A DNA stretch of 64,000 nucleotides from Limonium bicolor (lineage: Eukaryota > Streptophyta > Magnoliopsida > Caryophyllales > Plumbaginaceae), in NCBI GenBank assembly GCA_023374045.1, contig CM041779.1:295936167-296000166 (forward strand), given 5' to 3'. The notes under the pieces are model-generated. The model saw only the letters and a program-made list of their open reading frames with translations, searched no databases and was not told the DNA's origin. Positions 13,249-61,009 of the stretch are shown one piece after another. Each line of letters begins with the position of its first letter. Position 1 is the first letter of the stretch. Position numbers and translations under genes: made by a program.

Positions 13249-13252
13249 AAAG

Positions 13253-24562: not shown

Positions 24563-25615
24563 TCAATAGAAAAATAGATTTAGTGTATCAGAAGGATGCT
24601 TCATGTTCCGGGTCATGTCGAAAACTACCTGCTCATCATGAAGTCTTAAAATAATTTTTCCTCCTTCAACATCAATTAAAGTTCTTGCAGTTCTCATAAA
24701 AGGTCTACCTAGGATCAGTGGAACATCTTTATCTTCCTCAATGTCAATAACAATGAAATCAGCAGGGAAAATAAATTTGCCAACAGAAACCACTAAATCT
24801 TCAACTTTTCCTTTAGGGCGGATTATGGAACGATCAGCTAGTTGTAGCTGCACAGGAGTAGGAGAGCATTGACCTATACCTAATTTCTTAAATATAGATA
24901 AAGGCATTAAGTTAATACTTGCGCCTAAATCGCATAACCCGTTACCACAATTTATGTCTTCAATTGCGCAAGGAATGATAGGGAGACCTGGATCTCCCAA
25001 CTTCGGTGGTAGCTTCTTTAAGAGTACTGCAGAAACTCTTTCGGTTAGTTTCACCGTGTCATTTTCCTGTAAAGATCGCCTGTTAGACAAGATATCTTTC
25101 ATAAATTTTGCATAAATAGGCATTTGTGTTAAGGCATCAGAAAAAGGAATATTAATAGTTAATTTCTTAAAAATGTTAAGAAATTTTCCAAATTGGTCAT
25201 CCAAATTATTCTTCTTTAATCTATCAGGAAATGGGATTGGAATTTCATATGAAACCTGTGACGGTTTAATAGTAAGGGATGCAGGAGACTCCTTCTCCTT
25301 GGGAATTGTTACGTCTTCTTTGTCAGATTTTTGTTCATCAGATTTCTTCTCAGTTTCAGGGACATCGGATACCAGTTCTTTCCCGCTTCTTAGGGTTATT
25401 GATTTTGCATGCTCCCTGGGATTTGGATCAGTCTGGCTCGGGAGTGACCCTGCTGGTCTTTGAGCCAACTGTTGGGAAATCTGACCTATCTGTCTTTCTA
25501 AATTTGTGGTTATAGTAGCCTGATCAGCAACTTTGGCTTCTATCTCAGAAAATTTTGAATTTATCGCCTGACCTTGTTTTAGAAGCTGATTCATCATGCC
25601 CTTCAGCTCGCCCAT
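24563..25615 (-). pseudogene. Protease region of element F (Athila-type)
   Basis: This 350-codon open segment starts at an internal Met. Residues 1-60 look like a coiled-coil/linker (GELKGMMNQLL, ATITTNLERQIGQISQQL). The Athila signature ITLRSGKEL follows at about 73. The aspartic protease is at about 215-330, with active site DLGAS (Asp229) and flap/C-terminal block ILGRPFMRTARTLID (301-315). It would be part of a Gag-Pol polyprotein cleaved by this protease. It is open throughout, but gag upstream is frameshifted. Confidence 0.82.
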
Positions 25616-29115: not shown

Positions 29116-29120
29116 CCTAC
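29116..29120. repeat. Target site duplication of element F, right copy
   Basis: CCTAC matches 18555-18559. Confidence 0.9.
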
Positions 29121-32100
29121 CCCATTCCAAACGAGTTCAACCTTCAAACAGACCCTCCTTCCTCCATTTTAGAGCTTGGAAGCAGCCAACTTCAAAGAGG
29201 AACTCCAATGGCATAAGGTAAACATTCAAAAAATGTTATATGTCATTCTCTTCACCTTTTCTTCCTCTTTCCATTGATCTAACTTCCAACCACTTCCATC
29301 CACTCATCTAGCACGAGTTGGTGTTCAAAGGGAAGGAGAAATCTCGGCTCAAACTCAATATTCAAGGGGGAAGCAAGCTTAAGACATAATTAAGGTAAAA
29401 ATGTGCTTTAAGCACTTAATTCCTTTTCAACTTCATTTCCAGTTGAGAATATTAGTTCCCTTGGCTTATAATCTTCCATTTATCATGCTTGATCAGTAGC
29501 AATTGCAACCACATTATTTGGTGGCTGATTCCAAGCTTAAACTCCATTTTAAGCCATTTTAATCAAGGCAAGCCCTAGCTTTCCTCTACCTAGATCATTG
29601 GCTGTTATATAGCTGAGTTTAAAGAGTGTTTCGATGCCTTCTTTCTGTTGGAAAATCAGGCCGAGAGCAGCTTGGGAGATCCTTGATTTTTCAAGGTAAA
29701 AGTTCATGTTTTCATGACTTAATATTACTCTTATGGTTAGTTTAAGTTTGGGACCTAACCATATCATTATATTGCTGTTAGAACACATCTAAGAAGCTGT
29801 GGAAATTTTCCTCTAAATAGTTGTGGCCAAACAAGGCCTTATCTTGGCTAAAATAAGGTATAAATCACTTAAACCTTCACTTGGTATATTAATATGTGTT
29901 TAAACATATGTGTATAATATTGCCGTGAGTGAATATGGTATAAAAGGTCATATTTTGACCTTAGGTGATTAAGGAATGATTTGGTAAATTTATATAAGTA
30001 ATTAAGTAACATAAAGGTCAAATTAAGACTTTATGTGGAAAATTGGTAATTAATGTAAAATACTAGGTGAGGCCGATAGTTTAATGCATTTTTGGGCATT
30101 TATGTGTAATTTATTTTATAAGCTAATGTTTGTAATAAGGCCATGTACTTTAGGCCATTTTATTTATGTATTTATAAGGTTTTAATTAAGTTTAGGTAAT
30201 ATATATGTATTACCGCAAAGAATTAGGGTCTAAACCTTAATAAATTAAATTTGGCGGCTATATAATAATAAAGCCAAAAATTAGAGGTTTAAATGAGTTT
30301 AAATAAAAATTGTAAGATTTTATAAAGTTTTGGGGTTAAATGGTAATTTCTAGAAAATATGGGTACAAACCGTAATATATGAAAATTGATGGTCAAGGAA
30401 TTATTAAGGAGGTCAACCTTGACCATATGGTAGGTTTTGACCAAATTAGATAAGTTTAATAACTTATTTAAGGTTTTATAATAAGATAAGTATTTAATTG
30501 TAACATTTTTATAACATATGTGGTAAATATCTTATTACCGAAAATAAAGGGTGTAAAATGGTATTATAAACACCCATGGGGTATTATGAATTTTTAGGAA
30601 TTTATTTGGTTGATTTTGGAATTTAAAATAAACTATATATGTATAATATATAGTTATTATGTCATTATGACACTTTGGAATAGTAGATGGGGTGGAAATG
30701 TAATAACCGAGAACATATGGGTTAGTAATGATAATTATAACCCTTAGGTGAAATTTGGTGATTTTTGGATTAATATAAGAGTGTTAATAAGATATATGTA
30801 TAATATATAGTTTTAATGATATGATAAAACTATATGTTATAAATTGGGCCAAATGGCAATTATAGGAATTGGAAGGATTGAAAAATAATATAGAACAGAT
30901 TATGGGTATGTTCGCAATTTAAAATAATATATAACCATAGGTTATATTGATATTAAAGTTTAAAATGTTATAATATATGATATATATGACATAACATTAT
31001 ATATGTGGTCAAATTGTAAATTTGGAAAGTTAAAGGGGTTGGAAATTAATTTAAAACAGAATGAGGTCTGTTCGGTAATTTCCAAGTGAAAAACCATAGG
31101 TTATACCATTTTATAAGTTAAAAATGTTATATTATATGGTATATATAACATGGTATAAATAATGGGGTGATTTTGTAATAAAAGAAAACTATGGGTTATG
31201 GAAAGAATAAGGTTTTGCTATGGTGCCCATGCGGCAATATTAAATATAGTTTGTATAAAAACTATAGGTTATAAGTTAAGAGAAAATAAAAATATCATAT
31301 TATATGATATTAGTATATGGTATAACATTACATAATGTTATGGGGTTAAAATGAAATTAAAAGAAAGTAAAGGGCTGTACCAAATTATAAAGGTTGGATA
31401 AATGAATTTTAGACTATGGTCTACAATGTTATAAATGTTATAACAATTATATGGTTTAGATGGAATTAATATAAGTAAGGATATTCACATTAAATAATGC
31501 GACAAACTATAAATAAATAAGATTTATAAACTAAGGTATACATTGAATGAACCTTAGGAGTTGAAATTGTACAACATAAAGATGTTACCTAATATTAGGA
31601 TAATAATCTTAATATGAGTTGTATAATATAATACAACTAATGGGAATAATCATCTAATATAAGATGATAAAATGTAACATATAATATAAGAGTTTTATAA
31701 CTCATGGAACTTACCTATATTGGTAAATATATACATATGCAAGAATAATGTATATAAGGATGGATATATATTATGGTTGGAAACCATATAATATAATGGT
31801 GGTGGTTATTACATGGAAATAGTTTACAAACTATATGTTATAAGTTTTAGAATGCAAATGTAGTTATTAAAAGATTAATGGATTATATAATACAAAGTAT
31901 TATAAGGATGGTGGGAAAATAATACAATATATAAAATCATGCATGTATACATGCAACTATAGGTTATATACCTAAATTAAAGGATGGAAAAGATTAAAGA
32001 AATATAACTGAATTAAACTTAACAGTCGAACCATTTTGACATACGAGTTTTAGTAACAATGCCGACCGGTTTAGAGAAACCCGTAACAATTAACTGTAGA

Positions 32101-33748
32101 AATCCGGGGATGAACTGTCGGGGTTACTTGTTATTCGGAAATAACGAATTTAGTTAGTCATGGAGACTGACTTATAGTTTATTACCGTTTAGATCATACT
32201 TCAGACGAAGGCGCTTGACGAGCTAGTGGTCTACACTACGCATCCTTGGTCTAAGGTGTACGGTATGTAAAGGGGTTTGATCCGGGTTGTCCAAAGGAAT
32301 TCCTTGGGCTCGGATTTGGTTGATATCACTTGTGTGTTATGTGTGTGGATATGTGTATGTGATTATCTGTTACTGCATTATTTATTTATGCACGAGCGTC
32401 CTACGGGACTAACACTACGGCGACTATAGATCGACTTATATAAACATACATATGCGTTTAATGTGATGACATGACGGTTACTTGATATAATACCACTAGT
32501 ATTAATATTAAGTATAAGGTAACCTAAAGTAAAACACTTAGGTACGAGTCACGACATTGTCGGTCTCTAGAGCATGGATCTCGAACATGAATATAACCTA
32601 GATCACTTTTAGGTATGTGTGAGACCCATTGGGCAGCTAATTAATAAATTATATTCTCCATAAGACTAAGAGCATATCTTAAACATTATGAGAGAGAGAG
32701 ATGGTGTGAGTTGAGGTGAGGAATCTAGTGTAGTTTACGAACTACTTGGTTGCGCATTTGTGATCATTGAGGGGTTCCCGATCGGGTTTCGCTCTAGGTA
32801 TATACCCAACGAGCCCTATTTGGATCGTGGGTCAGGTGGCTACGACCTTTATATGGACGCCTTACGAGGCAAAGAGAATAGTCAGGGGCCTCCGGACCTC
32901 TGGCGAAATGAGCACCTTTGTGTGTACGGGAGGACTACTGTCCATGGTGAGGTTATTGGGTTGTCCTAACATGACGCCCAACTGGAAAATAAATAATTAA
33001 ACATGGTTTGGATGGATGGGGCCTTACAGGCCAAGGTAAATTAAATATGGAAACCGTTCGCTACGGCGATTGTACATTGTACATTATACTGCAATTATGT
33101 CGATATGTTCGATTATATAACTGTTGTTGTGATATGAAATGAATATTTGGATTGGATGGATGGTTATGTATTTATGAATGTTGGATTGGATAGATGGTTA
33201 TGCATTTAAGCATGTTTCTACAGTATTACTTATAACTGTAAAATGGTAAAGCATGAAACCAATCTAATAATAAGATGGTTAAAATGACTAAGTGACCATT
33301 AGGGTCCAGGCCCGGCATACTCAGCGTTTATCGTTGAGACTACACTCATTGTGCAGGTTGTTGATTATCGCCAAAGCCGAAGTGCGGGATCAGGGTAGTT
33401 AGAGTTTATTTTAATTACTGCACATGGAGTTTATTTGTATAACGATGTCAGACTGAGAATTGTATTATGGTACGGTTATGTATATTCGGGATTGGGTAGA
33501 CGCTCACTTGTCGACGTTTATGGTTTATGGACTTAGTATGATGTATAGGAGTTATCTCGTTATCACAGCGGTTAACAGTTTGTTTATAATGGTTGTTGGA
33601 TTTAGTTTGGCTTCGTTACTCGCATGGGCGAGTAATGGCCGGTGACACCCGAGTGAGTATTGTTGTTGTTATTATTTCTTCCGCTGTAAGACGTTTTATT
33701 TATTGCTACGAGAGAGATTATTACGTGTTTAAGGAGAGGGGTGTTACA
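29121..33748 (+). repeat. 3' LTR of element A, right part
   Basis: This continues the LTR cut at 18559 and ends GTGTTACA at 33748. It matches 8617-13248 of the 5' LTR with only scattered differences, including the TATA block at 32437-32444. Confidence 0.9.
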
Positions 33749-33753
33749 ACACC
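33749..33753. repeat. Target site duplication of element A, right copy
   Basis: ACACC matches 8042-8046. Confidence 0.9.
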
Positions 33754-40342: not shown

Positions 40343-40461
40343 TGTAACACCCCTACTACAACAATACACTTAATAACCATTTTGCAGCGGAAAACATACA
40401 TCATCACATTACTTAGCTCGTTGGCGTTACACGCCGTTAGCCACCCACGTGGCTAACAAGG
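40343..40461 (-). repeat. Inverted LTR H, left part
   Basis: The plus strand starts TGTAACACCCC, the reverse complement of the common LTR end. It continues with the reverse of the end segments seen in LTR G ('gcagcggaaaa', 'gccacccacgtggc'). Element B inserted after CAAGG. Confidence 0.75.
40457..40461. repeat. Target site duplication of element B, left copy
   Basis: CAAGG precedes the LTR start of B at 40462 and recurs at 54782-54786. Confidence 0.92.
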
Positions 40462-43400
40462 TGAAATACCCCGTAATTAAAAATAGTGATTAATTAGGCT
40501 AATGAATAATTTAGAAGCTTAATTAAGTGTAAATAATCATGAGGGAACAAATCCCGAAGAAAACGGACCCTTAAAACGAATCAAAATCACTAACGAACCT
40601 TAAAGCACGTTTTTCGAGGTAACCGGGAAAACGTGTCTTAAAGCGGGTCGAATAGACTTGTAACAATTTTGGTCAACTAAATAATCATTAATAAATATTA
40701 GTGAAGCTTTAGAACCAATAAAATCAATAAAACGAGAAATTAGTAAAAACTGTCAAAAACGGGAAATTGTGGGGTAGAAACATAAATAACCAAAACATAT
40801 GTGTCCACTTTGAAAATAAAAAGTAAAAGTGATATGTGTGTGCTGTGTGTGTCCGATTGGGACTCCCCCTCTCTCACACTCTCTCACACACTCACTTACT
40901 CATTTACTAAACAACAAAATAATAAAGTGACTCACATTACTACTTTATTCTCTCACACTCTCTCTCCTATCTCTATTCTTTTCTCTCACGTAGAACCCCC
41001 ACCCCACACTCTCTCTTTTCTCCTTTCTTCTTCCCCATGCGATTTCCATGGAGTTTTGAAGACCCACTCACAAACTCTATCTTCTCTCATCTTGTAACCC
41101 TCTTGAACCTTCTCCAAAAATTATAAAAACTACACCATTGGAATCCTCTCATCAAGAGCTACACTCCTATCTTTCCAAAATTCGAAAACAACAACTTTCA
41201 TCTCCATGGGTATGGAGCATTTGGAGCTTCAAGACCACCATTAGAACCACCTCATTCTCCTTGTTCTTTTGAGGTAAAAATATTCTTAAAACTCCATCTT
41301 TTTCTAGCCCTTGTGGGCAAAACGAAATTTAAACTAAACCCTTGCTTGCTCCTTGTGTATCTAGCCGATTTTGGCATTGTTGGTGGAGCTTAAATCTTAC
41401 TCTTGAGCTATTACAAGCATTACTTATACCCTTGGAAGGTAATATAAATTCTAAACCCTAAAACCTACAGTGGAACTTACATAATGGTTAGGGTTAAATT
41501 GTGTATTAAAATGGTGTATTGAAATGTATATGTGAATGGGCTGTAGTGTTAGAATCTTGGTTGCTAAACCGGTGGGAAGAGGAAGAGGAAGGAAAGAGAG
41601 AAGGAAGAAGGAAGAAACAAGAAGAGAAAAACAACTTGAAGAAGAACAAGGTAAAATGATGCTCTCTTGTGTAGTTTAGTAATGCATTATGTAACAGATT
41701 TTTAGGAGTAAAAATATGTATTGTAAAATGGTAATGTAGTAGTAGTGTAATGTGTAGGAGAATATAAGTATTTTGAACCTTTAAAAGACATTTAAAACTT
41801 GTTGAAACATGGATGGGAATTAATGTTTGAGTGCAGGAATTTAGAGTGTGTTAGTGTTGGTAATTGTGTATGGGAGCCTTGTATATGAATGCTATTGAAA
41901 CAGGTGGATTGGGTAACAATATGTGGGTATCAACATTGTGGTGAGAGTATAAAATATAGGGGAGGTCATGGCAAAATTTACCTAGGAATAGAACACTTAA
42001 GAGATTAGGAACTAGGTGAATGGCATAGGTTGTAACAGATCTTAATAGAGAAAGATAGAGGGTATATTAGGAGAGATAGTCAATGTAGTTGTGATGTATT
42101 AGAGGTGTTAGGAATGACATTAGAAGAGGGAGTTATAGAAGGGGAGTGTTAGTATCAAAATCTGTAGCAAAATGCATTAAGGAAGGAAACAAGGTAAGTG
42201 TTGAATAGAAACTTAGAGAATTGTGTATATAAGTTAGTATAGAATTATGTAATGAATTAGGAAATGAATTAGCATGATTTAGAGTGTTTAAATTGCACTA
42301 AAACATGTTAGGATGTATGTAGGAAGATTGGGGAAGCAATGGGTGAAATTGGGAAAAGAAAAATAAGGTCTGTAGCACAATCTGCTGCCGTCCGACCCAG
42401 AGCCTGGATCGGACAGTGGGTCGGACGGGGCTTAGGCAACGACAATAAACCTTTCTGGAACGGTCCGACCCAGGACCGTGAGTCGGACATGGGTCGGACA
42501 GGCAAAAAAAAAATCTGTGTCGAAGTTACTGACTTCGTCCGACCCAGAGTCAGTGGGTCGGACGGAGCTTGGACACGGGACCGAAACCTTCTGGAACGGT
42601 GCGACCCAGAGGAGTATGGGTCGGACAGAATAGTGCTGGGTCGGACGGGAAGAATTTCAGAGACGGGAACCTACTGGAACGGTCCGACCCAGGGCTTGGG
42701 TCGGACGCTGGGTCGGACAACCCATAACTTACAAAAAAAAAAACTGTAAGCTTATAACTAGTATATATATATATGTATACCCACCTATACATATGTACAT
42801 ATATATGTAAGTAAACCATCGTTAAGTAATTGAAAGTAAGTAAATAAAATGTTAGTATAGGAACGTAAAGACTTAGTAAGTATGGGTTAGGAAACGTAAG
42901 AGTAATCGAATTGAGTTAATGACAGTTAGATTAATCATTCGATTGTATGTATATCATAGGATTTGATTTGTGACACCGGAGGAACGTTCGGAAACACGTA
43001 CAACGGTGAACGGTATGAATTCCTCATGCCCCGTATGCTATCTTGGTTACTCTGATTTGTGTGTTGTGTGCTAATTGATCATCAAATAAGATAAATGCAC
43101 GAATCGGAGTTATCATGTTTACTTGTGAATATGTAGTGCTGTATATTGGTGTATAGTTTTCTTAATTCTTAGTTTGTATAATTCATGAAATGTATGGATG
43201 AATATGAATGTGTGTATGAATGTTGTACTGTACTGTGACCGATTGTGATTGTGCTTGGACTTCTAACTTATTCCTAACAAGCTAACCAATCTAACTTAAA
43301 TTGGTAATTAAATTGGAATGAGTAGAAGTCCGATATAGTTTCGGCCACGCGTGAGGATGCGGAGTCACGAGAGGTTGGCTCCAATTCCTGACTCTTAAAC

Positions 43401-44330
43401 TAGTTCGTGGCCCAAATCCCTTAAGTGGGTAGCATCCCGGATTGGTGAGTCAAGTAAATCCCGGAGGTGGGACGGCGTAGTCCCCAGGGCCGGAGGTCAT
43501 ACCGACTTAACTTGAGTATAAGTAAGTAAGTAAGAATGAGTAAGTAAAGTAAGTGAAAGTGAGCATGTGCAAGTAAGAGGAAGTAAGTGAAATGAGTAAA
43601 AGAGTAAACAGCATTCCGATTAACCCGGATGCGTAATTTGGCTAACACCGTGAAGGTAAGTATTGTATGCACTATTGTATTGGTGCCTTGAATTGTGTAA
43701 AGAAATGAGTATGCATGTACGTTGTATGAAAAACATGTATGTATGAAATTAATGAATCGCATGTTTAGTGGGCGTCAAATAGTCGGCGTGCCCTAGCTAG
43801 CACGCGGTATATGCGGAGTTTATGCGCAGCTTTTGCTGAGCCCGTTGGGGCACCGTTTTTACTACACGCAGGTACTCGAGAAGGATGAAGAGGACGAGGA
43901 GTTTTATTTTGATTTCCTTTTGGGCTGTAAACATTGAATGATGATTGGTGTACTAAGTAGTACACGGCTGTAAGTTTTTGTTAGCTGGTGTACCATGGGG
44001 TACACCTTTTTGGATTGGGGTATAGATGAGTAGCTTGTAGAAACTCATTCTTTTGGGAAGTTTGAATTGGGATGTAATTGAATACACTTAAATACTCGGT
44101 GATCCATTGATGTAAGTATTCGGTATGTGGTATTTTGGTAAGTAATATAATAGCTCGGTATATTATGTTCATCAGACCGTTACTGTAAGTAAGGTAAGCC
44201 TAGCTAGCCGTATGGGCGGTTAGCGGCGTTGTACCACCCGCCGCAGTACGTAGTAGTATTCCGCTGCGAACTGGTAGGATTAATAGGACAATTAGACGTT
44301 AAGCGCAGGAGTGACGGTAGGGGTGTTACA
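40462..44330 (+). repeat. 5' LTR of element B
   Basis: This runs from TGAAATACCCC to GTGTTACA. Near 40860-41090 a CT-rich tract resembles a plant promoter/leader region. Donor-like GT sites follow at 41274, 41439, 41651 and 42194, and an acceptor-like CGCAG lies at 43867-43871. A GTCCGACCC cluster lies at 42384-42722, a TA repeat near 42760 and GTAA-type repeats near 43515-43600. No protein is supported. Confidence 0.93.
42384..42722. repeat. GTCCGACCC/GGGTCGGAC cluster in 5' LTR of B
   Basis: About a dozen direct and inverted copies of GTCCGACCC are spaced irregularly, with 'ctggaacggtccgacc' repeated. The 3' LTR copy is at 52815-53150 and differs by small gains and losses of repeat units. 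Confidence 0.8.
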
Positions 44331-44335
44331 AAAAG

Positions 44336-44347
44336 TGGTATCAGAGC
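44336..44347 (+). promoter_or_regulatory. Primer binding site of B (tRNA-iMet)
   Basis: TGGTATCAGAGC lies five bases after the LTR. Bases 44340-44363 form an inverted repeat with 10-bp arms (ATCAGAGCGT / ACGCTCTGAT) and an AGTA loop, overlapping the primer site. Confidence 0.92.
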
Positions 44348-45224
44348 GTAGTAACGCTCTGATGTCCTTAGTTACCGAGCATAGGGGATTACCGAGTTAG
44401 GATTTCAACCGTCTTAAGACGGATACTTAGAAACCTAAATAGGAACTACCGTTGTTAACAACGGATACCCTTGACATTCTTAGGAACGATACCTTGTTTA
44501 AATTCCAAGACCTTTGAGTCATATCTTGCGGAGCCTAATGTAACTGCTAAATGTTCAGATGTCCGGAAGAGGTCCAGGTCGCCCTAGAGGAGGGGGCAAT
44601 GACAGACCCGGCACACAGACGATAGCGGAAATCATCGCTGCCACGGTAGCACAGATGCTACCATAAGTAATCCAAGCTATGCAACAAACTCAACAAAATC
44701 AGCAGACACAAGCGGGACCAATCCCTCCCCCTCCACCCAGAGAAGCTAACTGGGTAAAAGCTGTAGCGGAACTCCGCCCTCCTTGCTTTAGGGGCGAGAG
44801 TGATCCGGCTAAGCTAGAGGCCTACATCTCCGAGATGGAGACAGCCTTTGAAACCCTCGAAGCTCCTGCTGGAGTTCGAGTCAGAGTAGCAGCCTACTAC
44901 TTAAAAGATGCAGCCATGGATTGGTGGAAACTAATCAAACATGAGCACATCAGCGACCCCACCTTCGATTGGGAGTCTTTTGCATCACTCCTCCGATCAA
45001 AATACTATCCGGAACATGTAAAGACTAAGAAAAGGCTAGAGCTGGACGCCTTGAAGATGACAGACAAGATGTCTGTGGATGAGTACTACAGAACCTTCAC
45101 TTTTATTCTCCGTCTTCTACCCGACCTTGGGTACACCGGCCAGGTGTTGGTCGATCGCTTCTATGGCGGTCTGAGCCATCGCCTACGGTACGGTATGGGC
45201 TACACCAGATTTACCTCCCTTCAG

Positions 45225-45336
45225 GTAAATATCGGTCAACCCTTAGTATCATTTCAATTCCTTAAATTCCTTGAATTCCTTGAATCTCCTCTTATCCCTT
45301 CTTAAATGAGAATCCCGGCTAATACCTGAACTTCAG
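45225..45336 (+). other. Inferred gag intron 1 of B
   Basis: CAG/GTAAAT to CTTCAG/GAG, 112 bp, contains stops in the gag frame. The exons on both sides join at LQ/ECYHAAS, exactly where A and D have IQ/ECYDAAS or its equivalent around their first intron. Confidence 0.8.
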
Positions 45337-45616
45337 GAGTGTTATCACGCGGCTTCTCGCGTTGAGATCACTTGCCAACTACGGGATGAAGAAACCGCGC
45401 TGAAGCGCAAGGCAAACAGCAAGAACACAAGTGCCAAGGAGCAGAACCAGGGGAAAAGCTGGAAGAAGAAGAAGGGAAAGTTCTTCGGTCAGACCTCCAA
45501 GAACTTCCCAAGTGAGAGCAGTGCCCATGCTGAGCAGGGCAAACCAGTTGAGCTTCTTCAGCTTGGTTCATCTGCACCGGTGGCTGCCAAGCCACTGAGA
45601 TCACACCCACCAAAGG

Positions 45617-45701
45617 GTAAACTTCTATTCCTAAATCGTATTCTTACAAGTACCATATCTAGTATACCCACGCACACATGTGCTAACCCTCTAAACCTCA
45701 G
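45617..45701 (+). other. Inferred gag intron 2 of B
   Basis: AAGG/GTAAAC to CCTCAG/GTT, 85 bp, phase 1. The joined exons read PLRSHPPKG/SGSD. Element A has the same site as its third intron (PLRSAPPKG/TGQP). Confidence 0.8.
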
Positions 45702-46182
45702 GTTCTGGCTCAGATTTCACCAAAACCTTCTCCGACGGCCGCACCTATGTGTGCAGAAAATGCAACCAAGACCATCCCGGCAAGGACTGCTATGGGAGAG
45801 AAATCAAGTGCTACAACTACCAGAAACCAGGACACACGGCCAACAGATGCCCAGAGAACGCCAAGCAAAAAGGGAACTTCCAAAGCTACAAGTAGAGGGA
45901 AGGCAAGGAGGTTGCATCTGGCGATGCACCGACCCAGCAGGCACCGCAGGGACAGGGATCCTGGGGACCTCAGAGGGGTGCACCTCAGAGGCAGCCTGTC
46001 CTTCATGTTATCGACCGTGATGGGTCCGGTTCTAAGTCCGGTCCAGGTAATTAATCTAAACCTTTAATCCTTGGAGTAGCATGACTAAGTAGTAGAGTAA
46101 CTGTTTGAATGAATGATGAGTAAATAAAATGAAGTGTGTATTAAGCATGAAAAGAAGTAGTTGAAACTAGTACTCACCGTAG

Positions 46183-46941
46183 ATGGAATTTGTAACCTTA
46201 GCAAGCTTTAGTATCTGTTATCCGATACCGGTAAACCTGAATCAAGAGGAGACCAACATCACCAACCACTACTACACCAACGAACAGTGTCAGGTCATCC
46301 GACCAGGTATGATCTTATTAAGGGGATACCTGACACCCGAAGCGCAAATCTCAATCATCCGACGATGCAACGAGCTAGGAACGGGTCAAGGTGGATTTTA
46401 CACACCCGAATTCCCCAGTGGAGCGAAGATGAAGCTAAAAATGATGTGCTTGGGAAAGGACTGGAATCCTTATACCAAGACATACCAGGAGACACGACCA
46501 CAAGATGGAGCAACGCCACCGACAATACCTCTAGAGTTTCAGACACTCGTCACACAAGTAGTAGAACTTGCACAACAATGCGAACATGATCCGATCCCCG
46601 CACTGGAAGCGGACCTCTGTATCATCAACTTCTATGAGAAAGAAGGACGACTTGGGTTACACCAAGACAAGGACGAGACAGCGGAATCTCTTGAACAAGG
46701 AGTGCCCGTAGTGTCTTGGTCCATTGGTGATGACGCCGTATTCCTGTATAGCGAGCAGAAGCGTGTGGACCTCGCACAGAAACTGGTATTGAGATCAGGA
46801 GATGTCCTAATCATGGGTGGAAACTCTAGGATGCTGTATCACGGGATCAACAAGATCAAACTGAATACGGCACCGCCGGCAATAGTCAATGCCACACACA
46901 TGAAACCAGGACGCCTGAACCTTACCTTTAGAAAGTATTAA
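46183..46941 (+). CDS. AlkB-family Fe(II)/2-oxoglutarate dioxygenase, ALKBH1-like, captured
   Basis: The ORF has 252 codons, no introns and is intact. The core fold starts near residue 39 (RPGMILLRGYL). MCLGKDWNPYTKTY is at 88-101. NFY at 149-151 matches the AlkB N-x-Y that touches 2-oxoglutarate. The iron ligands are His160 and Asp162 in LGLHQDKDE, and His220 in MLYHGI. Arg244 and Arg250 in RLNLTFR bind 2-oxoglutarate and substrate. AlkB enzymes oxidatively remove methyl groups from bases in DNA or RNA. The layout with MCLG-x2-W and SGDVLIMGG is closest to plant ALKBH1-like proteins, as judged by eye. The start codon follows an AG. A later Met at residue 43 is inside the domain, so the first ATG is preferred. 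It shares strand with gag and pol and sits between them. Substrate and expression are unknown. Confidence 0.92.
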   Translation: MEFVTLASFSICYPIPVNLNQEETNITNHYYTNEQCQVIRPGMILLRGYLTPEAQISIIRRCNELGTGQGGFYTPEFPSGAKMKLKMMCLGKDWNPYTKTYQETRPQDGATPPTIPLEFQTLVTQVVELAQQCEHDPIPALEADLCIINFYEKEGRLGLHQDKDETAESLEQGVPVVSWSIGDDAVFLYSEQKRVDLAQKLVLRSGDVLIMGGNSRMLYHGINKIKLNTAPPAIVNATHMKPGRLNLTFRKY

Positions 46942-47010
46942 ATTCATAGTATCATGTAATGTGTTAGTAACATGTATTAGAGACACGGTATGTATGATGG
47001 TTGGTTTATC

Positions 47011-47016
47011 AATAAA
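47011..47016 (+). promoter_or_regulatory. Possible polyadenylation signal after AlkB
   Basis: AATAAA lies 70 bp after the AlkB stop, inside the intron, with T/G-rich sequence around it. It could end an AlkB transcript or be a relic of the captured mRNA. The hexamer alone is weak evidence in plants. Confidence 0.35.
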
Positions 47017-47081
47017 GAGCAGTGTTGATTTAATTCCACTTGTGTCCACCATCAATACTTAACCACTTGTGAATTCAATAG

Positions 47082-50000
47082 GTTGTGGACTCGGTACCGA
47101 AGGTAACCTGAGTATCCTTACCGAAGCACAAGCCGGCAGAAGCGGCACCATCTTAACGGGAACATTCCCAGTAAATGGCATTGATGCCAATGTGTTATTC
47201 GACTACGGCGCCTCTCACACTTTCTTATCACCATCCTTTGTGAAGAGGTTGAAGCTAGATGCGGATGAGCTACCGAATTTCATGGTTACTCTCCCATCGA
47301 AGGAGCGAGTAAAGTGCACCAAATACTACCAATCAGCCACCATAGAAATCAAAAACAAAGTGTTTCCCATCTCCTTCATCGAGTTTAATGGATTGGGATT
47401 CGACTTAATCATCGGAATGAATTGGTTGGAGCGGCACAAGGGTAGAATCCTCTGCGCCGAGCATCGATTGCTGCTCAAGAGTCCTTCTGGGGTTACCGTA
47501 TCTTACCGCCAGAGACCGAGAGAGCCTTCGACCACACTTATATCTGCTATGGCTATGTACCGGGAGCTCAGAAAGGGCCATGAAGTGTATCTATGTTATG
47601 TACAAGACCTGGAGAGAGATCCAGAGTTCAGCGAAGATGTACCGATAGTATCCGAATTTCCTGATGTATTCCCTAAGGAGCTACCCGGCATGCCACCACC
47701 GAGAGCAGTGGAATTTGAAATTGATCTTTTGCCAGGTACCGGTCCCATTGCTAGGGCACCGTACCGCATGGCACCTGCTGAAATGACGGAGTTGAAAGAG
47801 CAGTTACGTGATTTACTTGACAAAGGGTTTATACGCCCGAGCGTATCACCCTGGGGAGCACCGGTCCTCTTTGTGAAGAAGAAGGACGGTAGTCTCCGAC
47901 TTTGCATTGACTACCGCGAACTGAATGCGGTTACAGTCAAAAATAAATACCCATTGCCACGCATCGACGACCTATTTCATCAGCTAAAAGGAGCATCAGT
48001 CTTCTCCAAGATCGACCTCTGTTCTGGGTATCATCAAATTGCTATCAAAGAGCAAGACATTGATAAAACGGCATTCCGTACCAGATATGGCCACTACGAA
48101 TTCACAGTGATGCCATTCGGTTTGTCAAATGCACCAGCTAAATTCATGGACCTCATGAATCGACTATTCAGTGAGCAGTTGGACACTTCAGTGGTTGTCT
48201 TCATCGACGACATACTTGTATACTCCAAATCAGTAGAGGAACATGAAACTCACTTGAGGAAAGTGCTTGAGACACTGCGCGAGAACCAGCTGTATGCGAA
48301 GTTCTCCAAATGCGAATTCTGGCTAGATCAGGTATCATTCCTCGGTCATGTCATCTCGAGCGCAGGTATCTCAGTTGACCCTTCTAAGATAGAAGCTGTA
48401 CGATCATGGCCTAGACCTAAGACTGTTACCGACATTCGGAGCTTTCTTGGTCTAGCCGGTTACTACCGGAGATTCGTAAAGGACTTCTCGAAAGTCGCTA
48501 AGCCCATGACTACATTGATGAAGAAAGATGCTCTGCTTGTATGGACAGACGAGTGCGAATTATCATTTCAGAAACTAAAAGACTTATTGACCTCCGCGCC
48601 CATCCTTACTCTTCCAGAGGGCACAAAGGGATTTGAGGTATATTGTGATGCATCAGGCAAAGGAATGGGATGCGTACTCATGCAGCATGGCAAGGTTGTT
48701 GCTTATGCCTCCCGCCAGCTGAAAAAGCATGAGGAGAATTACCCGACACACGATTTAGAGTTAGGAGCCATTGTCTTCGCCTTGAAGATATGGCGACACT
48801 ATCTCTATGGGGTAAGCATCACCATCTACTCCGACCATAAGAGCTAACAGTATGTATTCACACAGAAAGAACTCAATTTGAGACAGAGAAGATGGATGGA
48901 GTTTCTTTCAGACTACGACATCGACCTACAATATAAGGAAGGGAAGGCAAACATCGTAGTCGACGCCCTGAGTCGTCGAGCACACTCGCTCCATTCGCTA
49001 CTCGCTTCTTCTAGCTTGGTTGACGAGGTGCGAGACGCTCAGTTGAGCGACCCTTACCTAACCGAAATCAGACAAAAGATTGAAAATGGTACATTTGAGA
49101 AGAAGAAGTATGACTTCAAGCTACATGAAGATGGTTTGATTCGGTTGAATGGCAGGCTATGCGTCCCCCGAAGCAATGCTGAGCTAAGGGATCACATCCT
49201 GCGAGAGTCACACAGTTCCACATTATCAGTCCATCCAGGAGCCTCCAAGATGTACAAAGACATGAAGAGGTACTTCTGGTGGTCTGGAATGAAATCGGAT
49301 GTGACAGAATTCGTATTGAGATGCTTAACATGCCAAAAGGTGAAATTTGAACATCGTAGACCGGGCGGAATGGTACAATCGATGCCAGTTCCAGAGTGGA
49401 AATTTCATGATATCTCCATGGATTTTGTTGTAGGACTCCCACCTGCCAGGGGAGGACTCAACATGATCTGGGTGGTAGTCGACCGCCTTACCAAGGTTGC
49501 CAGATTCATACCGATGAAGGACACCTGGAAGGTAGTGAAGCTAGCTGAGCTATTCGACAAGGAGATTATCAGGCATCACGGAGTCCCGAAAACCATAGTA
49601 TCTGACCGCGACACCAGATTTCTTTCGAGATACTGGAGAGCTACACGGGAAGCGCTGGGTACAGAATTGAAATTGAGTACCGCCTTCCATCCTCAGACCG
49701 ACGGTCAGACAGAAAGGACCATCCAAACACTGGAGGACATGCTTCGGGCATGTGCCTTAGACTTTCAGTGGAGTTGGTTAGACAAGCTTCATCTTATCGA
49801 ATTTTCATACAATAATAGTTCTCATGCCTCGATTAAGATGTCGCCCTTCCAAGCTCTATACGGTAGACCCTGCCGTACACCCTTGTGTTGGGATGAGTCA
49901 AGCGAAGCGGTCATCATAGGACCGAAGTACCTTGAGCAAGTGCAAGCTGAAGTTCAGCAGATTCGAGCTAATATGAAGGCAGCCCAAGATAGACAGAAAT

Positions 50001-50461
50001 CCTATGCGGATGTGAGACGACGCGACCTTGAGTTCGCCGTGGGCGACCAAGTGTTCTTGCGAGTTTTACCTATAAAAGGCGTATTCCATTTTGGTCAGAA
50101 GGGAACGCTTAGCCCAAAGTTTGTAGGGCCGTACACTATTACCGAAAGAGTTGGATCCGTAGCCTACAGGTTAGCATTACCTGAGGACTTGGGGCGTGTC
50201 CATGATGTATTTCATGTGTCACAACTCAAGAAGTATATTGCCGATCCTTCTCATGTCTTGGAGCCCGAGAGACTATCCATTGAGCCGACTATGCGATATG
50301 TTGAAACCCCCGTGAGAATCCTTGATAGGAAGACCAGAGACATTCGCCATAAGTCCATACGAATGGTGAAGGTCCTATGGTCAAACCATGATGTCAAAGA
50401 AGCGACATGGGAGTTGGAAGATGCCATGAAGGCTAAGTACCCACAGTTGTTCATAGACTAG
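47082..50461 (+). pseudogene. pol of element B: protease, RT, RNase H, integrase, chromodomain; one stop
   Basis: Protease comes first, with [10 protein letters not shown], where Tyr replaces the usual Ser/Thr of the active-site triad. Reverse transcriptase follows ([23 protein letters not shown], and FIDDIL at about 48199-48216), then RNase H with [21 protein letters not shown] and YSDHKS. TAA at 48845-48847 interrupts the RNase H end; the same frame then continues to 50461. Integrase has H-H-CLTC zinc residues, Asp in MDFVVGLP, Asp in VSDRDTRF and Glu in QTDGQTERT. The last 50 residues form a chromodomain (ILDRKTRDIRHKSIRMVKVL), the mark of chromoviruses, which in this group guides insertion to heterochromatin. 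The pol exon opens by splicing from gag. Confidence 0.92.
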
Positions 50462-50875
50462 AGAGTCTAGCATCTAGTAATACGGGTACGGGTCGTACCC
50501 CTTTTAAGGGGGGTAGAGCCCTTTTTGCTTTTGCATTGCTTCGGGGTAAGCATTGCATAGTGTGTAGGTATTGTAATAGGTTTTGTATGGCACATGTAGT
50601 GCGGAGCGTATGTGTATGTATGTGTAATCTGTGTGTATGGATGTGTATGTACAGTGTGTGATGTATGTGTAATGTGAATTGCAATGTTGTATTGTGGAAT
50701 GGTATGAATTGAAAGCGGTGAGTTGTGTATGATGCTTGAACTGTGTATGTTTGCAATGTGGAATGAAGTAAACACCTCATTGATGATAGTAAGATGCATT
50801 ATGGCAATTGGTTGCCTAATGAGTAGAACTACATAAACTATTAAACCGTGAGCAACTTTGAGGGCAAAGTTTCTT
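50462..50875 (+). other. 3' untranslated interior of B
   Basis: About 0.4 kb is T/G-rich with TGTGTATG-type repeats and no gene. A second polypurine copy lies at 50506-50517, 45 bp after the pol stop. Confidence 0.7.
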
Positions 50876-50888
50876 AAGGGGGGTAGAT
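50876..50888 (+). promoter_or_regulatory. Polypurine tract of B
   Basis: AAGGGGGGTAGAT abuts the 3' LTR start at 50889. Confidence 0.88.
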
Positions 50889-53182
50889 TGAAATACCCCG
50901 TAATTAAAAATAGTGATTAATTAGGCTAATGAATAATTTAGAAGCTTAATTAAGTGTAAATAATCATGAGGGAACAAATCCCGAAGAAAACGGACCCTTA
51001 AAACGAATCAAAATCACTAACGAACCTTAAAGAACGTTTTTCGAGGTAACCGGGAAAACGTGTCTTTAAGCGGGTCAAATAGACTCGTAACAATTTTGGT
51101 CAACTAAATAATCATTAATAAATATTAGTGAAGCTTTAGAACCAATAAAATCAATAAAACGAGAAATTAGTAAAAACTGTCAAAAACGGGAAATTGTGGG
51201 GTAGAAACATAAATAACCAAAACATATGTGTCCACTTTGAAAATAAAAAGTAAAAGTGATATGGTGTGCTGTGGTGTCCGATTGGGACTCCCCCTCTCTC
51301 ACACTCTCTCACACACTCACTTACTCATTTACTAAACAACAAAATAATAAAGTGACTCACATTACTACTTTATTCTCTCACACTCTCTCTCCTATCTCTA
51401 TTCCTTCTCTCACTCACGTAGAACCCCCACCCCACACTCTCTCTTTTCTCCTTTCTTCTTCCCCATGCGATTTCCATGGAGTTTTGAAGACCCACTCACA
51501 AACTCTATCTTCTCTCATCTTGTAACCCTCTTGAACCTTCTCCAAAAATTATAAAAACTACACCATTGGAATCCTCTCATCAAGAGCTACACTCCTATCT
51601 TTCCAAAATTCGAAAACAACAACTTTCATCTCCATGGGTATGGAGCATTTGGAGCTTCAAGACCACCATTAGAACCACCTCATTCTCCTTGTTCTTTTGA
51701 GGTAAAAATATTCTTAAAACTCCATCTTTTTCTAGCCCTTGTGGGCAAAATGAAATTTAAACTAAACCCTTGCTTGCTCCTTGTGTATCTAGCCGATTTT
51801 GGCATTGTTGGTGGAGCTGAAATCTTACTCTTGAGCTATTACAAGCATTACTCATACCCTTGGAAGGTAATATAAATTCTAAACCCTAAAACCTACAGTG
51901 GAACTTACATAATGGTTAGGGTTAAATTGTGTATTAAAATGGTGTATTGAAATGTATATGTGAATGGGCTGTAGTGTTAGAATCTTGGTTGCTAAACCGG
52001 TGGGAAGAGGAAGAGGAAGGAAAGAGAGAAGGAAGAAGGAAGAAACAAGAAGAGAAAAACAACTAGAAGAAGAACAAGGTAAAATGATGCTCTCTTGTGT
52101 AGTTTAGTAATGCATTATGTAACAGATTTTTAGGAGTAAAAATATGTATTGTAAAATGGTAATGTAGTAGTAGTGTAATGTGTAGGAGAATATAAGTATT
52201 TTGAACCTTTAAAAGACATTTAAAACTTGTTGAAACATGGATGGGAATTAATGTTTGAGTGCAGGAATTTAGAGTGTGTTAGTGTTGGTAATTGTGTATG
52301 GGAGCCTTGTATATGAATGCTATTGAAACAGGTGGATTGGGTAATAAGATGTGGGTATCAACATTGTGGTGAGAGTATAAAATATAGGGGCGGTCATGGC
52401 AAAATTTACCTAGGAATAGAACACTTAAGAGATTAGGAACTAGGTGAATGGCATAGGTTGTAACAGATCTTAATAGAGAAAGATAGAGGGTATATTAGGA
52501 GAGATAGTCAATGTAGTTGTGATGTATTAGAGGTGTTAGGAATGACATTAGAAGAGGGAGTTATAGAAGGGGAGTGTTAGTATCAAAATCTGTAGCAAAA
52601 TGCATTAAGGAAGGAAACAAGGTAAGTGTTGAATAGAAACTTAGGGAATTGTGTATATAAGTTAGTATAGAACTATGTAATGAATTAGGAAATGAATTAG
52701 CATGATTTAGAGTGTTTAAATTGCACTAAAACATGTTAGGATGTATGTAGGAAGATTGGGGAAGCAATGGGTGAAATTGGGAAAAGAAAAATAAGGTCTG
52801 TAGCATAATCTGCTGCCATCCGACCCAGAGCCTGGATCGGACAGTGGGTCGGACGGGGCTTAGGCAACGACAATAAACCTTTCTGGAACGGTTCGACCCA
52901 GGACCGTGAGTCAGACATGGGTCGGACAGGCAAAAAAAAATCTGTGTCGAAGTTACTGACTTCGTCCGACCCAGAGTCTGGGTCGGACAGTGGGTCGGAC
53001 GGAGCTTGGACACGGGACCGAAACCTTCTGGAACGGTCCGACCCAGAGGAGTATGGGTCAGACGGAATAGTGTTGGGTCGGACGGGAAGAATTTCAGAGA
53101 CGGGAACCTACTGGAACGGTCCGACCCAGGGCTTGGGTCGGACGACCCATAACTTACAAAAAAAAACTGTAAGCTTATAACT

Positions 53183-53214
<32 letters not shown>

Positions 53215-54781
53215 CCCACCTATACATATGTACATATATATGTAAGTAAACCATCGTTAAGTAATTGAAAGTAAGTAAATAAAATGTAAGTATAGGAACG
53301 TAAAGACTTAGTAAGTATGGGTTAGGAAACATAAGAGTAATCGAATTGAGTTAAAGACGGTTAGATTAATCATTCGATTGTATGTATATCATAGGATTTG
53401 ATTTGTGACACCGGAGGAACGTTCGGAAACACGTACAACGGTGAACGGTATGAATTCCTCATGCCCCGTATGCTATCTTGGTTACTCTGATTTGTGTGTT
53501 GTGTGCTAATTGATCACCAAAAAAGATAAATGCACGAATCGGAGTTATCATGTTTACTTGTGAATATGTAGTGCTGTATATTGGTGTATAGTCTTCTTAA
53601 TTCTTAGTTTGTATAATTCATGAAATGTATGGATGAATATGAATGTGTGTATGAATGTTGTACTGTACTGTGACCGATTGTGATTGTGCTTGGACTTCTA
53701 ACTTATTCCTAACAAGCTAACCAATCTAACTTAAATTGGTAATTAAATTGGAATGAGTAGAAGTCCGATATAGTTTCGGCCACGCGTGAGGATGCGGAGT
53801 CACGAGAGGTTGGCTCCAATTCCTGACTCTTAAACTAGTTCGCGGCCCAAATCCCTTAAGTGGGTAGCATCCCGGATTGGTGAGTCAAGTAAATCCCGGA
53901 GGTGGGACGGCGTAGTCCCCAGGGCCGGAGGTCATACCGACTTAACTTGAGTATAAGTAAGTAAGTAAGAATGAGTAAGTAAAGTAAGTGAAAGTGAGCA
54001 TGTGCAAGTAAGAGGAAGTAAGTGAAATGAGTAAAAGAGTAAACAGCATTCCGATTAACCCGGATGCGTAATTTGGCTAACACCGTGAAGGTAAGTATTG
54101 TATGCACTATTGTATTGATGCCTTGAATTGTGTAAAGAAATGAGTATGCATGTACGTTGTATGAAAAGCATGTATGTATGAAATTAATGAATCGCATGTT
54201 TAGTGGGCGTCAAATAGTCGGCGTGCCCTAGCTAGCACGCGGTATATGCGGAGTTTATGCGCAGCTTTTGCTGAGCCCCTTGGGGCACCGTTTTTACTAC
54301 ACGCAGGTACTCGAGAAGGATGAAGAGGACGAGGAGTTTTATTTTGATTTCCTTTTGGGCTGTAAACATTGAATGATGATTGGTGTACTAAGTAGTACAC
54401 GGCTGTAAGTTTTTGTTAGCTGGTGTACCATGGGGTACACCTTTTTGGATAGTGGAAGTATTGGATTGGGGTATAGATGAGTAGCTTGTAGAAACTCATT
54501 CTTTTGGGAAGTTTGAATTGGGATGTAATTGAATACACTTAAATACTCGGTGATCCATTGATGTAAGTATTCGGTATGTGGTATTTTGGTAAGTAATATA
54601 ATAGCTCGGTATATTATGTTCATCAGACCGTTACTGTAAGTAAGGTAAGCCTAGCTAGCCGTATGGGCGGTTAGCGGCGTTGTACCACCCGCCGCAGTAC
54701 GTAGTAGTATTCCGCTGCGAACTGATAGGATTAATAGGACAATTAGATGGTAAGCGCAGGACTAACGGTAGGGGTGTTACA
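50889..54781 (+). repeat. 3' LTR of element B
   Basis: This is colinear with 40462-44330. Differences include a longer TA repeat near 53185, repeat-unit changes in the GTCCGACCC cluster and a 14-bp gain near 54453. It ends GTGTTACA, then CAAGG. Confidence 0.93.
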
Positions 54782-54786
54782 CAAGG
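54782..54786. repeat. Target site duplication of element B, right copy
   Basis: CAAGG matches 40457-40461. Confidence 0.92.
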
Positions 54787-58100: not shown

Positions 58101-61009
58101 TAGATCTTATTCAATAATTAAGGATAAACAAATGTAATACGTTTACATCTAAATATTCTTGATATATAAACCATAATAAAAATAAGTAAAATACTTTTAC
58201 ATCTAAATGTGAGGTGGATTAGTAAGTCTAGATTTAATCATTTCTTAACATTTATGGTATTGAAATATAACTTAATGTTTTAAGATAGAATCATTAAAAG
58301 GATTATGATATAATCTATATTAAATGATGATTTGGAAATTTATCTAAATAATTATCCTTAAGGTTCTTAGAATTAGATAAGCCATATAAAATACATTTGT
58401 TACCAATATTCAGGATGTGAGTTTACAATTAAGTGAGGTATTTAGTAGTGAGGATTTATAGGAAGATTTATAAATAGGAATTTGATACTTAAAACCTTTG
58501 AACCTTTTATTAGATAAAACTAAGTTACATAAGATATTATATTGATATACTTTACGGTAATGGGAAGTAATGATAGGTTATTTGAATATAAGATATGAGA
58601 ATTTTCATAATAGATTATCTTATTAAATAATTAACAATTTCACTTATGAACCAGAATTTAATTCTCTGATAAATTCTACTCTGTGTGGATATATTGTCCA
58701 TCCTAAATACAATAAAGGAAATTAATTTATTAGGTTATTCCTTTGAAACCTTAGATTTTGTAAAACAATTTAAAACGTATTTAAGGCTTAAGTTTAATGA
58801 AGTTTAGTACAAAGGATTATGCATGGTCTATAGAGAGAATGTGTGTAAAAATAAAACATTTAGGAAATTAAATGTAAGTAAGGATACATAGAAGGTTATA
58901 CTAAACACCTTATTGTATAGGTAATAATAAAACATATAATATACCTTGTGAATACTAAATGTAAGATTAATTCGTTAAATCTAAGTTAACTATAGTATAG
59001 TTATTCAGGATGAGAAGCTATTTAACATCTTATGACAAGTTTATTAGATGGTTGTAATTAAAAGTCATTCTGAACTAAAGATATGATAATTGAGTTTAGT
59101 GGCTCAACTAAGTTATAATAAAATGTATCTACAACACTAAGATTCCAATATACAAGAGGTAGATCTTAATTAAGTTAAGGGGAAACTTAGTCATGATGGT
59201 TTATTTGGTAATATTTTTAAAGTACATAATCATTACATTGTGAATTAATAGTATAGTATTCTAAGATAAACCTATTGTAGGTCATAAGACAATGTTTATT
59301 CTAAAGTAAGAGTAAAAGTATTGAGCTTAAGAATTGTTATTGAAATTCTAAGATTGATTGAATAACATATAATGCACTTATGTTATAAAGGTCTTTAATG
59401 TGAGAATTATGGTTAAGTATGGGTAAAGTGGATGAGGGTGGAACAATTAACAAGTGTTTATAAAATACATTCCTTGGTCTTACAACCTTGAGTTATACAA
59501 CATTCTAAGACAAGTCAAAGGTTATACATAACATTTAAGTGAGGGCTTAAAAGACAATTGGGACTTAGAAATAAGAGTGAGGAGTTTATTTAAGCTTAAC
59601 GTAGGCTACAAGTGATTGATGATAGACTACCTTTAATATTCTTCAGAGTACTGTTGATTGTTTGTGCAAGTTGACTAGAACTGCTACAGCGTTATCCAGG
59701 TACGATTTCTCGTACTCCGTTACTTTTGCTGATTGACTTATGAGACGTTTTCGAAAAACGCTAACTGACTTTAAGAGGAATTTCTAAAAAGGAAATGGTT
59801 ATGTGACTAACCCAGCTTGTGTGACTAACTGAGCCTTGGATGTGAAACTCACTTGGGTATTGGTTCCTTCTATTTGGTTGTTCCATTAGACATTGACTGC
59901 TTAGGGTTTACGCTTCTGCACTCTGTAGGACTGAGTGTTTTGGTATTGCTCTGGGTAGTTGGTGATCTAGTGGGAATTTGGAAAAAAGGTCAATCTTGGA
60001 AATTCTTCTTTTGACTCTAGATATCGTTTCATCCATGAGCTGGTTCTTGAGGTTTCGACGTGCGCGCGTCTTCAATGGTAACAGTGAGGGGCTGTATATC
60101 CCCTGTCCCAAAAAGGGACGTGATAGACAGTGAGGGGCTGTATATCCCCTGTCCCAAAAGGGAAGTTGTAGACAGAGAGGGGTTGTATATCCCCTGCCCT
60201 TAGTGGACGTAGTTAACAGAGAGGGGCTGTATATCCCCTGTCCTTAGTGGACGTGGTAAACAGTGAGGGGCTGTATATCCCCTGTCCTAAAAGGACGTAC
60301 TTGGCGGTGGGGGCCATCTCTCCCAGTTGAATTTATTCCACTCTTGAGTATATTTTGTCTATGGGATTCAGCTTTCTGAAATGGTGGGGACATAAACTGT
60401 CTACCACGGGTTATGGGTATTCATATCATTCCTAGTCCGTTGTGACTACCTGAGTCTTTCTATTCTTAACCAGAATTGGTTCTAACATCAATATTGGATG
60501 CTTACTAACTATATGGTGTGACTTCTTAAGTGGTTGATTTGGTTTTTAAGTTCTTTGTCTCTATCCTTACCTTGTTCTCTCTTCTCTATGACTGATTGTT
60601 TGAAGTGCCTCCTTTCCCTGTTTTACTTTCAAGAGTTTGATTTCAAGTTACTGTTTATTTTGAAGAGTTATGTTTTATAAGTTTGTTTTTGGAGAATTGT
60701 ACCAGTTCCATTCCAGGGAACTGACTCACCCCTCCCGGGGTGGGCTGCTTGGTTTCATCTTGCAGGTACAAATTGATTTACAGGTGGCCACGAGGAGCAT
60801 GAGTGATTGAGATGGGATTAGGTTTATGGAGAGTGAATGTATTTTATTATTGTTTTGTTTATATTAAGTTTTCTCGAAGTTCAGACCGTAACTTAGTTAA
60901 TGGTAATGGTTGTAATTGGTGAGGTTGGTACCGGGTATTTGGAGCCCGATGGTCTGTAGCACCTTTAGTTTATTTTCCGCTGTTGTTTTATTATTATAGG
61001 GGTGTTACA
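55122..61009 (+). repeat. 5' LTR of element E
   Basis: This LTR of 5,888 bp runs from TGAAATACCCC to GTGTTACA. Donor-like GT sites at 55969, 56165 and 56396 precede about 3.2 kb of A+T-rich sequence (56750-59650). Then come a segment shared with A and D interiors, a 44-46-bp tandem array and an acceptor-like TTGCAG at 60760-60765. No gene was seen. Confidence 0.85.
60082..60304 (+). repeat. Five tandem 44-46-bp units in LTR E
   Basis: Units start at 60082, 60128, 60173, 60217 and 60261. Each begins CAGTGAGGGG or CAGAGAGGGG and contains the imperfect palindrome AGGGGCTGTATATCCCCT followed by a GTCC...GGAC dyad. Confidence 0.88.

Follow-up and report, generated by a model that had tools for sequence, protein, structure and literature searches.

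The locus studied here, in a window of 64,000 nucleotides from Limonium bicolor (contig CM041779.1), raises the question of what an AlkB-type demethylase gene is doing between the gag and pol genes of a retrotransposon, how it would be expressed there, and upon which nucleic acid its product would act. A sequence-only reading of the window had described a 252-codon ORF between gag and pol on the same strand, inside an element bounded by LTRs and a CAAGG duplication, and each of these statements proved correct. The ORF (46183-46941, + strand) encodes 252 aa, gag lies 5' and the pol domains lie 3' of it, and the element spans 40462-54781 (14.3 kb), with LTRs at both ends and CAAGG at both flanks (Table 1). 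Pfam searches placed gag domains 5' of AlkB, and protease, reverse transcriptase (RT), RNase H and integrase together with a weak chromodomain match 3' of it, all on one strand; the chromodomain match after the integrase (PF00385, E 3e-4, 21.1 bits) is below the cut-off of 25.1 bits. The primer-binding site at 44336-44347, TGGTATCAGAGC, is presumably of the methionine-tRNA type; such a site is a criterion for chromoviruses. Methionine-tRNA primer sites are not used by non-chromoviruses (PMC6317226). By its anatomy, the element would be of the chromovirus type, and this anatomy is consistent with the Tekay label that it had been given.

Table 1. Features of the AlkB-bearing element (positions counted from the first nucleotide of the window)
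Feature	Position	Strand	Evidence or remark
Target-site duplication CAAGG, 5' copy	40457..40461	.	sequence context CAAGG/TGAAAT...
5' LTR, 3,869 bp, TG...CA	40462..44330	+	K2P vs 3' LTR 0.0102 over 3,852 sites
Primer-binding site TGGTATCAGAGC	44336..44347	+	sequence
gag exon 1 (capsid region)	44559..45224	+	Pfam Retrotrans_gag 2e-15; start ATG in 19/20 copies
Predicted intron 1, phase 0	45225..45336	+	GT 20/20, AG 19/20; in-frame stops 20/20
gag exon 2	45337..45616	+	copy comparison
Predicted intron 2, phase 1	45617..45701	+	GT 19/20, AG 20/20; in-frame stops 6/20
gag exon 3 (zinc knuckles to ...VIDRDGSGSKSGP)	45702..46046	+	per-copy translations
Predicted intron 3, AlkB route	46047..46201	+	donor 46047 GT 20/20; acceptor 46200-46201 AG 68/69
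First six codons of reported ORF, probably intronic	46183..46201	+	N54/S2; ATG missing 13/69; 1-nt deletion 3/69
AlkB (ALKBH1-type) exon, 246 codons incl. junction codon, then TAA	46202..46941	+	predicted alternative last exon of gag
AATAAA poly(A)-signal-like hexamer, 3' of AlkB	47011..47016	+	53/60 copies
Predicted intron 3, Pol route, whole AlkB exon within	46047..47081	+	GT 19/19, AG 19/19, L031 excluded
pol: protease, RT, RNase H, integrase, chromodomain-like end	47082..50461	+	ORFs, Pfam
Polypurine tract	50874..50888	+	sequence
3' LTR	50889..54781	+	ends ...GTTACA/CAAGG
Target-site duplication CAAGG, 3' copy	54782..54786	.	sequence context

In the window copy, gag exon 1 carries an in-frame stop near its beginning, gag exon 3 carries an in-frame stop as well, and pol is broken between 48847 and 48878 (RNase H/integrase); in several other copies pol is open over 1,180 aa. 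The LTR pair of this copy differs by 39 substitutions (Table 1). Rates used for LTR dating range from 7e-9 to 1.3e-8 per site and year, and at these rates the insertion would be about 0.4-0.7 million years old. On the minus strand, both LTRs also contain an ORF of 113 aa (43421-43762 and 53856-54197), and the two are nearly identical.

The product of the ORF was examined by domain, structure and copy comparison. It matched PF13532 over residues 42-250 (E 4.3e-45, 154.7 bits against a cut-off of 31.2). The active-site residues that had been named from the sequence were all found where they had been placed (N149-F-Y151, H160-x-D162, H220 and R244-x5-R250); N149, Y151, H160, D162, H220 and R250 were conserved in all of 60 copies and R244 in 59 (the remaining one having R244H). 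The iron and 2-oxoglutarate residues, as read from the sequence, are intact, and demethylase activity is predicted. The best solved structure by sequence was rice OsALKBH1 (5xeg, E 1.3e-72), and ALKBH5 was absent among the 24 sequence matches to solved structures at E up to 10. Moreover, the predicted structure (pLDDT 91) matched the fold of OsALKBH1 (5xoi) at TM 0.82 and about 50% identity over the domain, with the active-site residues shared; E. coli AlkB and animal ALKBH1 came next. Sequence and modelled fold thus place the element AlkB with the plant ALKBH1 type, closer to ALKBH1 than to ALKBH5. The difference is one of setting: OsALKBH1 is a non-mobile host gene, whereas the element AlkB is mobile.

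A search of the genome with the AlkB protein gave at least 150 matches, each of which spanned residues 5-252 or more. Identity was 91-96%, and 100% for the window copy; by reading, 27 of the 150 listed matches contained an internal stop. When the C-terminus of the host protein was used as query, three host exons (86% identity) were recovered along with at least 147 other places at 65-70% identity. The latter are taken to be element copies; a spot check of this list against the first one showed zero overlap in the places checked. Its absence from this place in other copies had been named as a refuting result, and the opposite was found: 20 copies, the window copy included, were examined together with their flanks, and AlkB lay between gag and protease in every one. 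As a control, copies were also picked by pol, taking every fifth rank of the 75 nearest pol matches (15 ranks, of which 11 were readable and 4 were not; two of the 11 were already in the AlkB-picked set and nine were new). AlkB was found at the expected distance in all 11 readable copies, a result that speaks for near relatives only, since the sample was drawn from the 75 copies nearest in pol, and more distant relatives may therefore lack AlkB. In these pol-picked copies the AlkB frame was open over codons 1-252 in 4 of 11, and in 6 of 11 when counted from codon 7. AlkB is a standing part of a high-copy retrotransposon family in Limonium. One of the 20 copies with flanks (L031) has about 1 kb of additional sequence inserted between AlkB and the protease.

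The gene appears to have come from a host. A Limonium host ALKBH1 gene (L073, C3:700900-704450) is split beside the places of residues 56 and 161 by stretches with stops, which were read as introns, and no such stretch occurs in the element AlkB. With these two introns missing, the gene must have been captured via spliced RNA, in agreement with the earlier suggestion that the element had captured a host ALKBH1-like cDNA. Three host ALKBH1-like last exons are found on one contig (C3:704116, C3:132821415 and C3:133828275), two of which score equally; the one read here is the first. When 47 proteins were placed in a tree, that of the element (P0001) formed a clade with P0002-P0005 (support 100/100, stem 1.93), which are 59-71% identical to it and come from ENA or "lgn" contigs (the latter taken as Logan). 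The Limonium host ALKBH1 fell outside this clade, whose place among the host genes was weakly supported (39/82). P0002-P0005 may be elements in other plants. Among the best 120 of 2,651 matches (from 7,994 scored candidates, those with the most shared words), no named plant protein scored like P0002-P0005, and the nearest, P0242, had a doubled domain and lower identity. Relatives of the element AlkB were not found among viral contigs (A3).

How the AlkB frame would be translated was approached through the gag-pol reading frame, which is interrupted by three conserved GT...AG stretches (Table 1), with AlkB wholly within the third. In 19 copies (those with flanks, L031 excluded for its insertion), the splice dinucleotides of the three candidate introns were intact in 18-19 copies, and by coordinates and translations the exon phases agreed at every junction. 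Counting the AlkB acceptor, there are 14 splice-dinucleotide sites; these had taken 2 changes, compared with 11.8 expected at the intron rate (Poisson P 6e-4). The contrast was weaker when other GT/AG dinucleotides of the introns, also well conserved, served as the reference: 33 of those 61 were intact in 18 or more of the 19 copies, compared with 7 of 7 splice sites (Fisher p 0.036). The end of gag exon 3, ...VIDRDGSGSKSGP, is strongly conserved. Intron 2 breaks the frame at its usual length of 85 and has in-frame stops in only a minority of copies (Table 1). A frameshift within gag in place of introns was considered and is unlikely in view of the conserved splice dinucleotides and phases and of the in-frame stops that intron 1 contains in all 20 copies. 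A precedent is offered by Ogre elements, in which a partly spliced intron lies between gag-pro and pol and the spliced transcripts are a subset only (cited in PMC6317226). In both cases an intron lies between the front of the polyprotein and the remainder of pol, the Limonium case being one of conserved signals only. Compared with Ogre, the Limonium element has three candidate introns, the last of which holds a captured enzyme with its own predicted acceptor, stop and poly(A)-like signal.

The sequence-only reading had taken AlkB to be an ATG-started gene of 252 codons; the open frame stood and the start did not. In 69 copies, codons 1-6 had taken 54 nonsynonymous (N) and 2 synonymous (S) changes, and codons 9-22 had taken N15 S41. 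The ATG at 46183 was present in 56 of the 69 copies and missing in 13 (ACG in 10, ATA in 2, GTG in 1). None of these 13 copies was disrupted in codons 7-252, compared with 9 of the 56 copies having the ATG. Two groups of three ATG-less copies clustered in the tree (support 0.89 and 0.78), the others were scattered, and the ACG copies formed no single clade. Another three copies (L031, L074 and L080) shared an identical one-base deletion in the A run just after the ATG and did not group. An amplified ATG-less or deletion lineage was rejected as an explanation, the tree supporting nothing past the two groups of three. An in-frame stop lies at 46180-46182 in 68 of 69 copies, and codons 7-42 of the window copy contain no ATG. 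Given the unconstrained codons 1-6, the missing ATGs and the upstream stop, coding seems to start somewhere between codons 6 and 9, which would need an upstream exon, and the protein probably does not start at the ATG at 46183. That start had been accepted at first and was dropped since codons 1-6 are unconstrained; Met43, the first residue of P0002 and P0004, was rejected as a start because of the constraint on codons 9-22.

Constrained coding would thus begin at about 46201/46202, probably as an alternative final exon of gag. Eight AGs between 46123 and 46230 were conserved in at least 90% of copies, and only that at 46200-46201, present in 68 of 69 copies (most of which read AACCATAG/GAAGC at 46201/46202), both fits the phase-1 gag donor and leaves the AlkB frame open. 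On the majority sequence, joining it to the donor of gag exon 3 gave an open frame of 246 codons (GSFSICYP...). The AG at 46181-46182 was conserved in 67 of 69 copies and gives an open frame only when joined to a phase-0 donor, donor 1 being one; a fusion of donor 1 to acceptor 46182 is possible and would be in phase, but it requires that codons 1-6 be coding. The AG at 46210-46211 is open with a phase-2 donor, and none of the three element donors is of phase 2. Most simply, the element would have AlkB and pol as alternative last exons, with both isoforms predicted. Within the predicted intron, position 46192 is G in 36 and A in 33 of the 69 copies, far above the variability of its neighbours; this split is possibly a subfamily marker.

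With the ATG kept in 56 of 69 copies, a free AlkB, translated from 46183 on unspliced or otherwise spliced RNA in the manner of ORF2 in the orchid elements discussed below, has to be weighed as well. The frame from 46183 is open in most copies, and the conserved AG at 46181-46182 lies directly 5' of the ATG. We nevertheless consider a separate protein unlikely, given that copies without the ATG, the two trios among them, show no disruption further on, that three more have a deletion immediately behind the ATG, that codons 1-6 are without constraint, and that on unspliced RNA the ORF would stand behind gag.

AlkB enzymes remove m1A and m3C, and both of these modifications stop reverse transcriptases. 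In the mechanism that we propose, the gag donor at 46046/46047 would be joined to 46202 to give Gag-AlkB, for which AlkB supplies the stop and the poly(A) signal; joining to 47082 instead would give Gag-Pol. The Gag part would carry AlkB into the particle, where the enzyme would act on the RNA template (or primer), removing methylated bases' methyl groups that impede or stop reverse transcriptase or that expose the RNA to host control. On balance, we lean towards the broader form of this reading, in which a selected, intron-less gene of ALKBH1 type is expressed as Gag-AlkB by alternative splicing and likely clears methyl groups from packaged RNA, its activity being predicted. A narrower form is offered only tentatively: acceptor choice would yield Gag-Pol or Gag-AlkB, AlkB would repair m1A/m3C-like template bases in the particle, and P0002-P0005 would point to an old lineage. 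In Arabidopsis, the host demethylase ALKBH9B frees ONSEN RNA for mobilisation (PMC12786077).

For the substrate, two other proposals were weighed against packaged RNA. OsALKBH1, the closest solved relative, is known above all for acting on DNA 6mA, which is for that reason the main rival substrate. AlkB would then be a nuclear eraser of 6mA (or another base) on new or integrated copies and would aid their escape from silencing; many database relatives of the element protein are, moreover, named "DNA N(6)-methyladenine demethylase". The predicted fusion to Gag argues for the particle and not for chromatin, and we judge action on DNA to be improbable. Human ALKBH1 demethylates m1A58 of the initiator tRNA, and the Limonium element has a methionine-type primer site, so that AlkB might target host RNAs or the primer tRNA, dampening defence or altering priming, and leave its own template alone. 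The orchid study, too, proposes cognate or cellular RNA as the target (PMC9289625). Against this stands a published statement that m1A58 is critical for initiator tRNA stability (PMC7475180), and this proposal appears quite doubtful to us. We retain the RNA packaged with Gag-AlkB as the preferred substrate.

Selection was measured on parsimony counts over one tree, a rough estimate with the neutral spectrum taken from, or rounded after, the element introns. The 69-copy set comprised 60 copies (the window copy included) chosen for their similarity to the AlkB protein, a choice that favours intact copies, and the 11 pol-picked copies as control, with an overlap of two. On internal branches of the 69-copy tree, codons 36-252 gave N26 S160 (omega 0.07) and zero stops compared with about 27 expected under neutrality. 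The 11 pol-picked copies alone gave N11 S35 with one stop (omega 0.13) on internal branches and omega 0.21 on end branches. Among the 19 copies with flanks, AlkB had an internal omega of 0.05, gag exon 1 one of 0.07 and protease one of 0.11; the constraint on AlkB is accordingly about as strong as that on the capsid gene, in a sample that is mostly AlkB-picked. Mean heterozygosity at codon positions 1, 2 and 3 (60 copies) was 0.034, 0.017 and 0.078, respectively. AlkB is under purifying selection through many copying rounds, as seen in a set in which 60 of 69 copies were picked by AlkB likeness. The view that AlkB is a neutral passenger, for which a dN/dS near 1 across copies had been named as the sign, draws on the decay of individual copies (a stop or indel in codons 1-252 in 7 of 11 pol-picked copies) and is, for the family, largely refuted and in our estimate very improbable, given the internal-branch omegas, the stop-free internal branches of the full tree and active-site residues that are invariant or nearly so.

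The remaining question was whether such an element had been seen before. The sequence-only reading knew of no described retrotransposon lineage with an AlkB gene, and here it was overtaken by the literature: Alvarado-Marchena et al. described in 2022 Gypsy elements of Phalaenopsis, of another lineage, that carry an AlkB of another subfamily, namely an m6A demethylase of the ALKBH5 type with in vitro activity; the other genomes in their set of 121 gave no AlkB (PMC9289625). Besides the orchid one, no other AlkB-bearing LTR element was found in the open-access literature searched. Gypsy_Pa_2799 of Phalaenopsis and the Limonium family have in common that both are high-copy plant Ty3/Gypsy elements with a captured AlkB whose cofactor residues are intact (PMC9289625). 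They differ in that the Phalaenopsis element belongs to the Ogre/Tat lineage, measures 25 kb, has an arginine-tRNA primer site and encodes its ALKBH5-type domain in a separate ORF2 of 565 aa (PMC9289625), whereas the Limonium element is, by anatomy, of the chromovirus type, measures 14.3 kb and carries between gag and pol a domain of the ALKBH1 type, not ALKBH5, which is predicted to serve gag as an alternative last exon. The Ogre kind of arginine-tRNA primer site is absent from it, a methionine-type site being present instead. Because AlkB subfamily, primer site and architecture all differ, the Limonium family is best read as a second, independent capture of AlkB, its lineage being set apart by anatomy.

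Two further systems resemble this arrangement. Retroviral dUTPase is encoded between nucleocapsid and protease, joined through frameshifting and carried with Gag; like the Limonium AlkB as predicted here, it is a nucleic-acid housekeeping enzyme located at the gag/pol junction. It is a different enzyme, however, and is joined by a frameshift, whereas the Limonium AlkB is predicted to be joined by splicing. AlkB domains are also named in plant flexiviruses and closteroviruses (PMC9289625), which like the Limonium element are plant RNA parasites with a captured AlkB; theirs is an RNA-virus domain without Gag or reverse transcription, both of which the Limonium element has. That two LTR-element lineages took up AlkB enzymes of two different subfamilies argues that such elements meet a real obstacle in the base methylation of their nucleic acid, and it makes this question testable with one domain and one RNA. 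If Gag-AlkB is produced as proposed, the particle would contain a template-repair or mark-erasing enzyme derived from an alternative exon, and not from a frameshift or a separate gene.

Other repeats were noted in the window. Two further gag genes on the + strand, at 6292-6690 and 13433-14155, are 42-46% identical to the element gag; a second pol close to that of the element was not found within the window. The gag at 13433-14155 is flanked by stretches that are 97.6% identical (8619-13249 and 29116-33749) and may represent a gag-only element. Apparently nested in this candidate element is a second Gypsy-type element on the minus strand (21450-25615), with protease, RT, RNase H and integrase, which resembles Athila elements. 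At 60081-60298 lies a short direct repeat, its units of about 174 bp overlapping and 87% identical.
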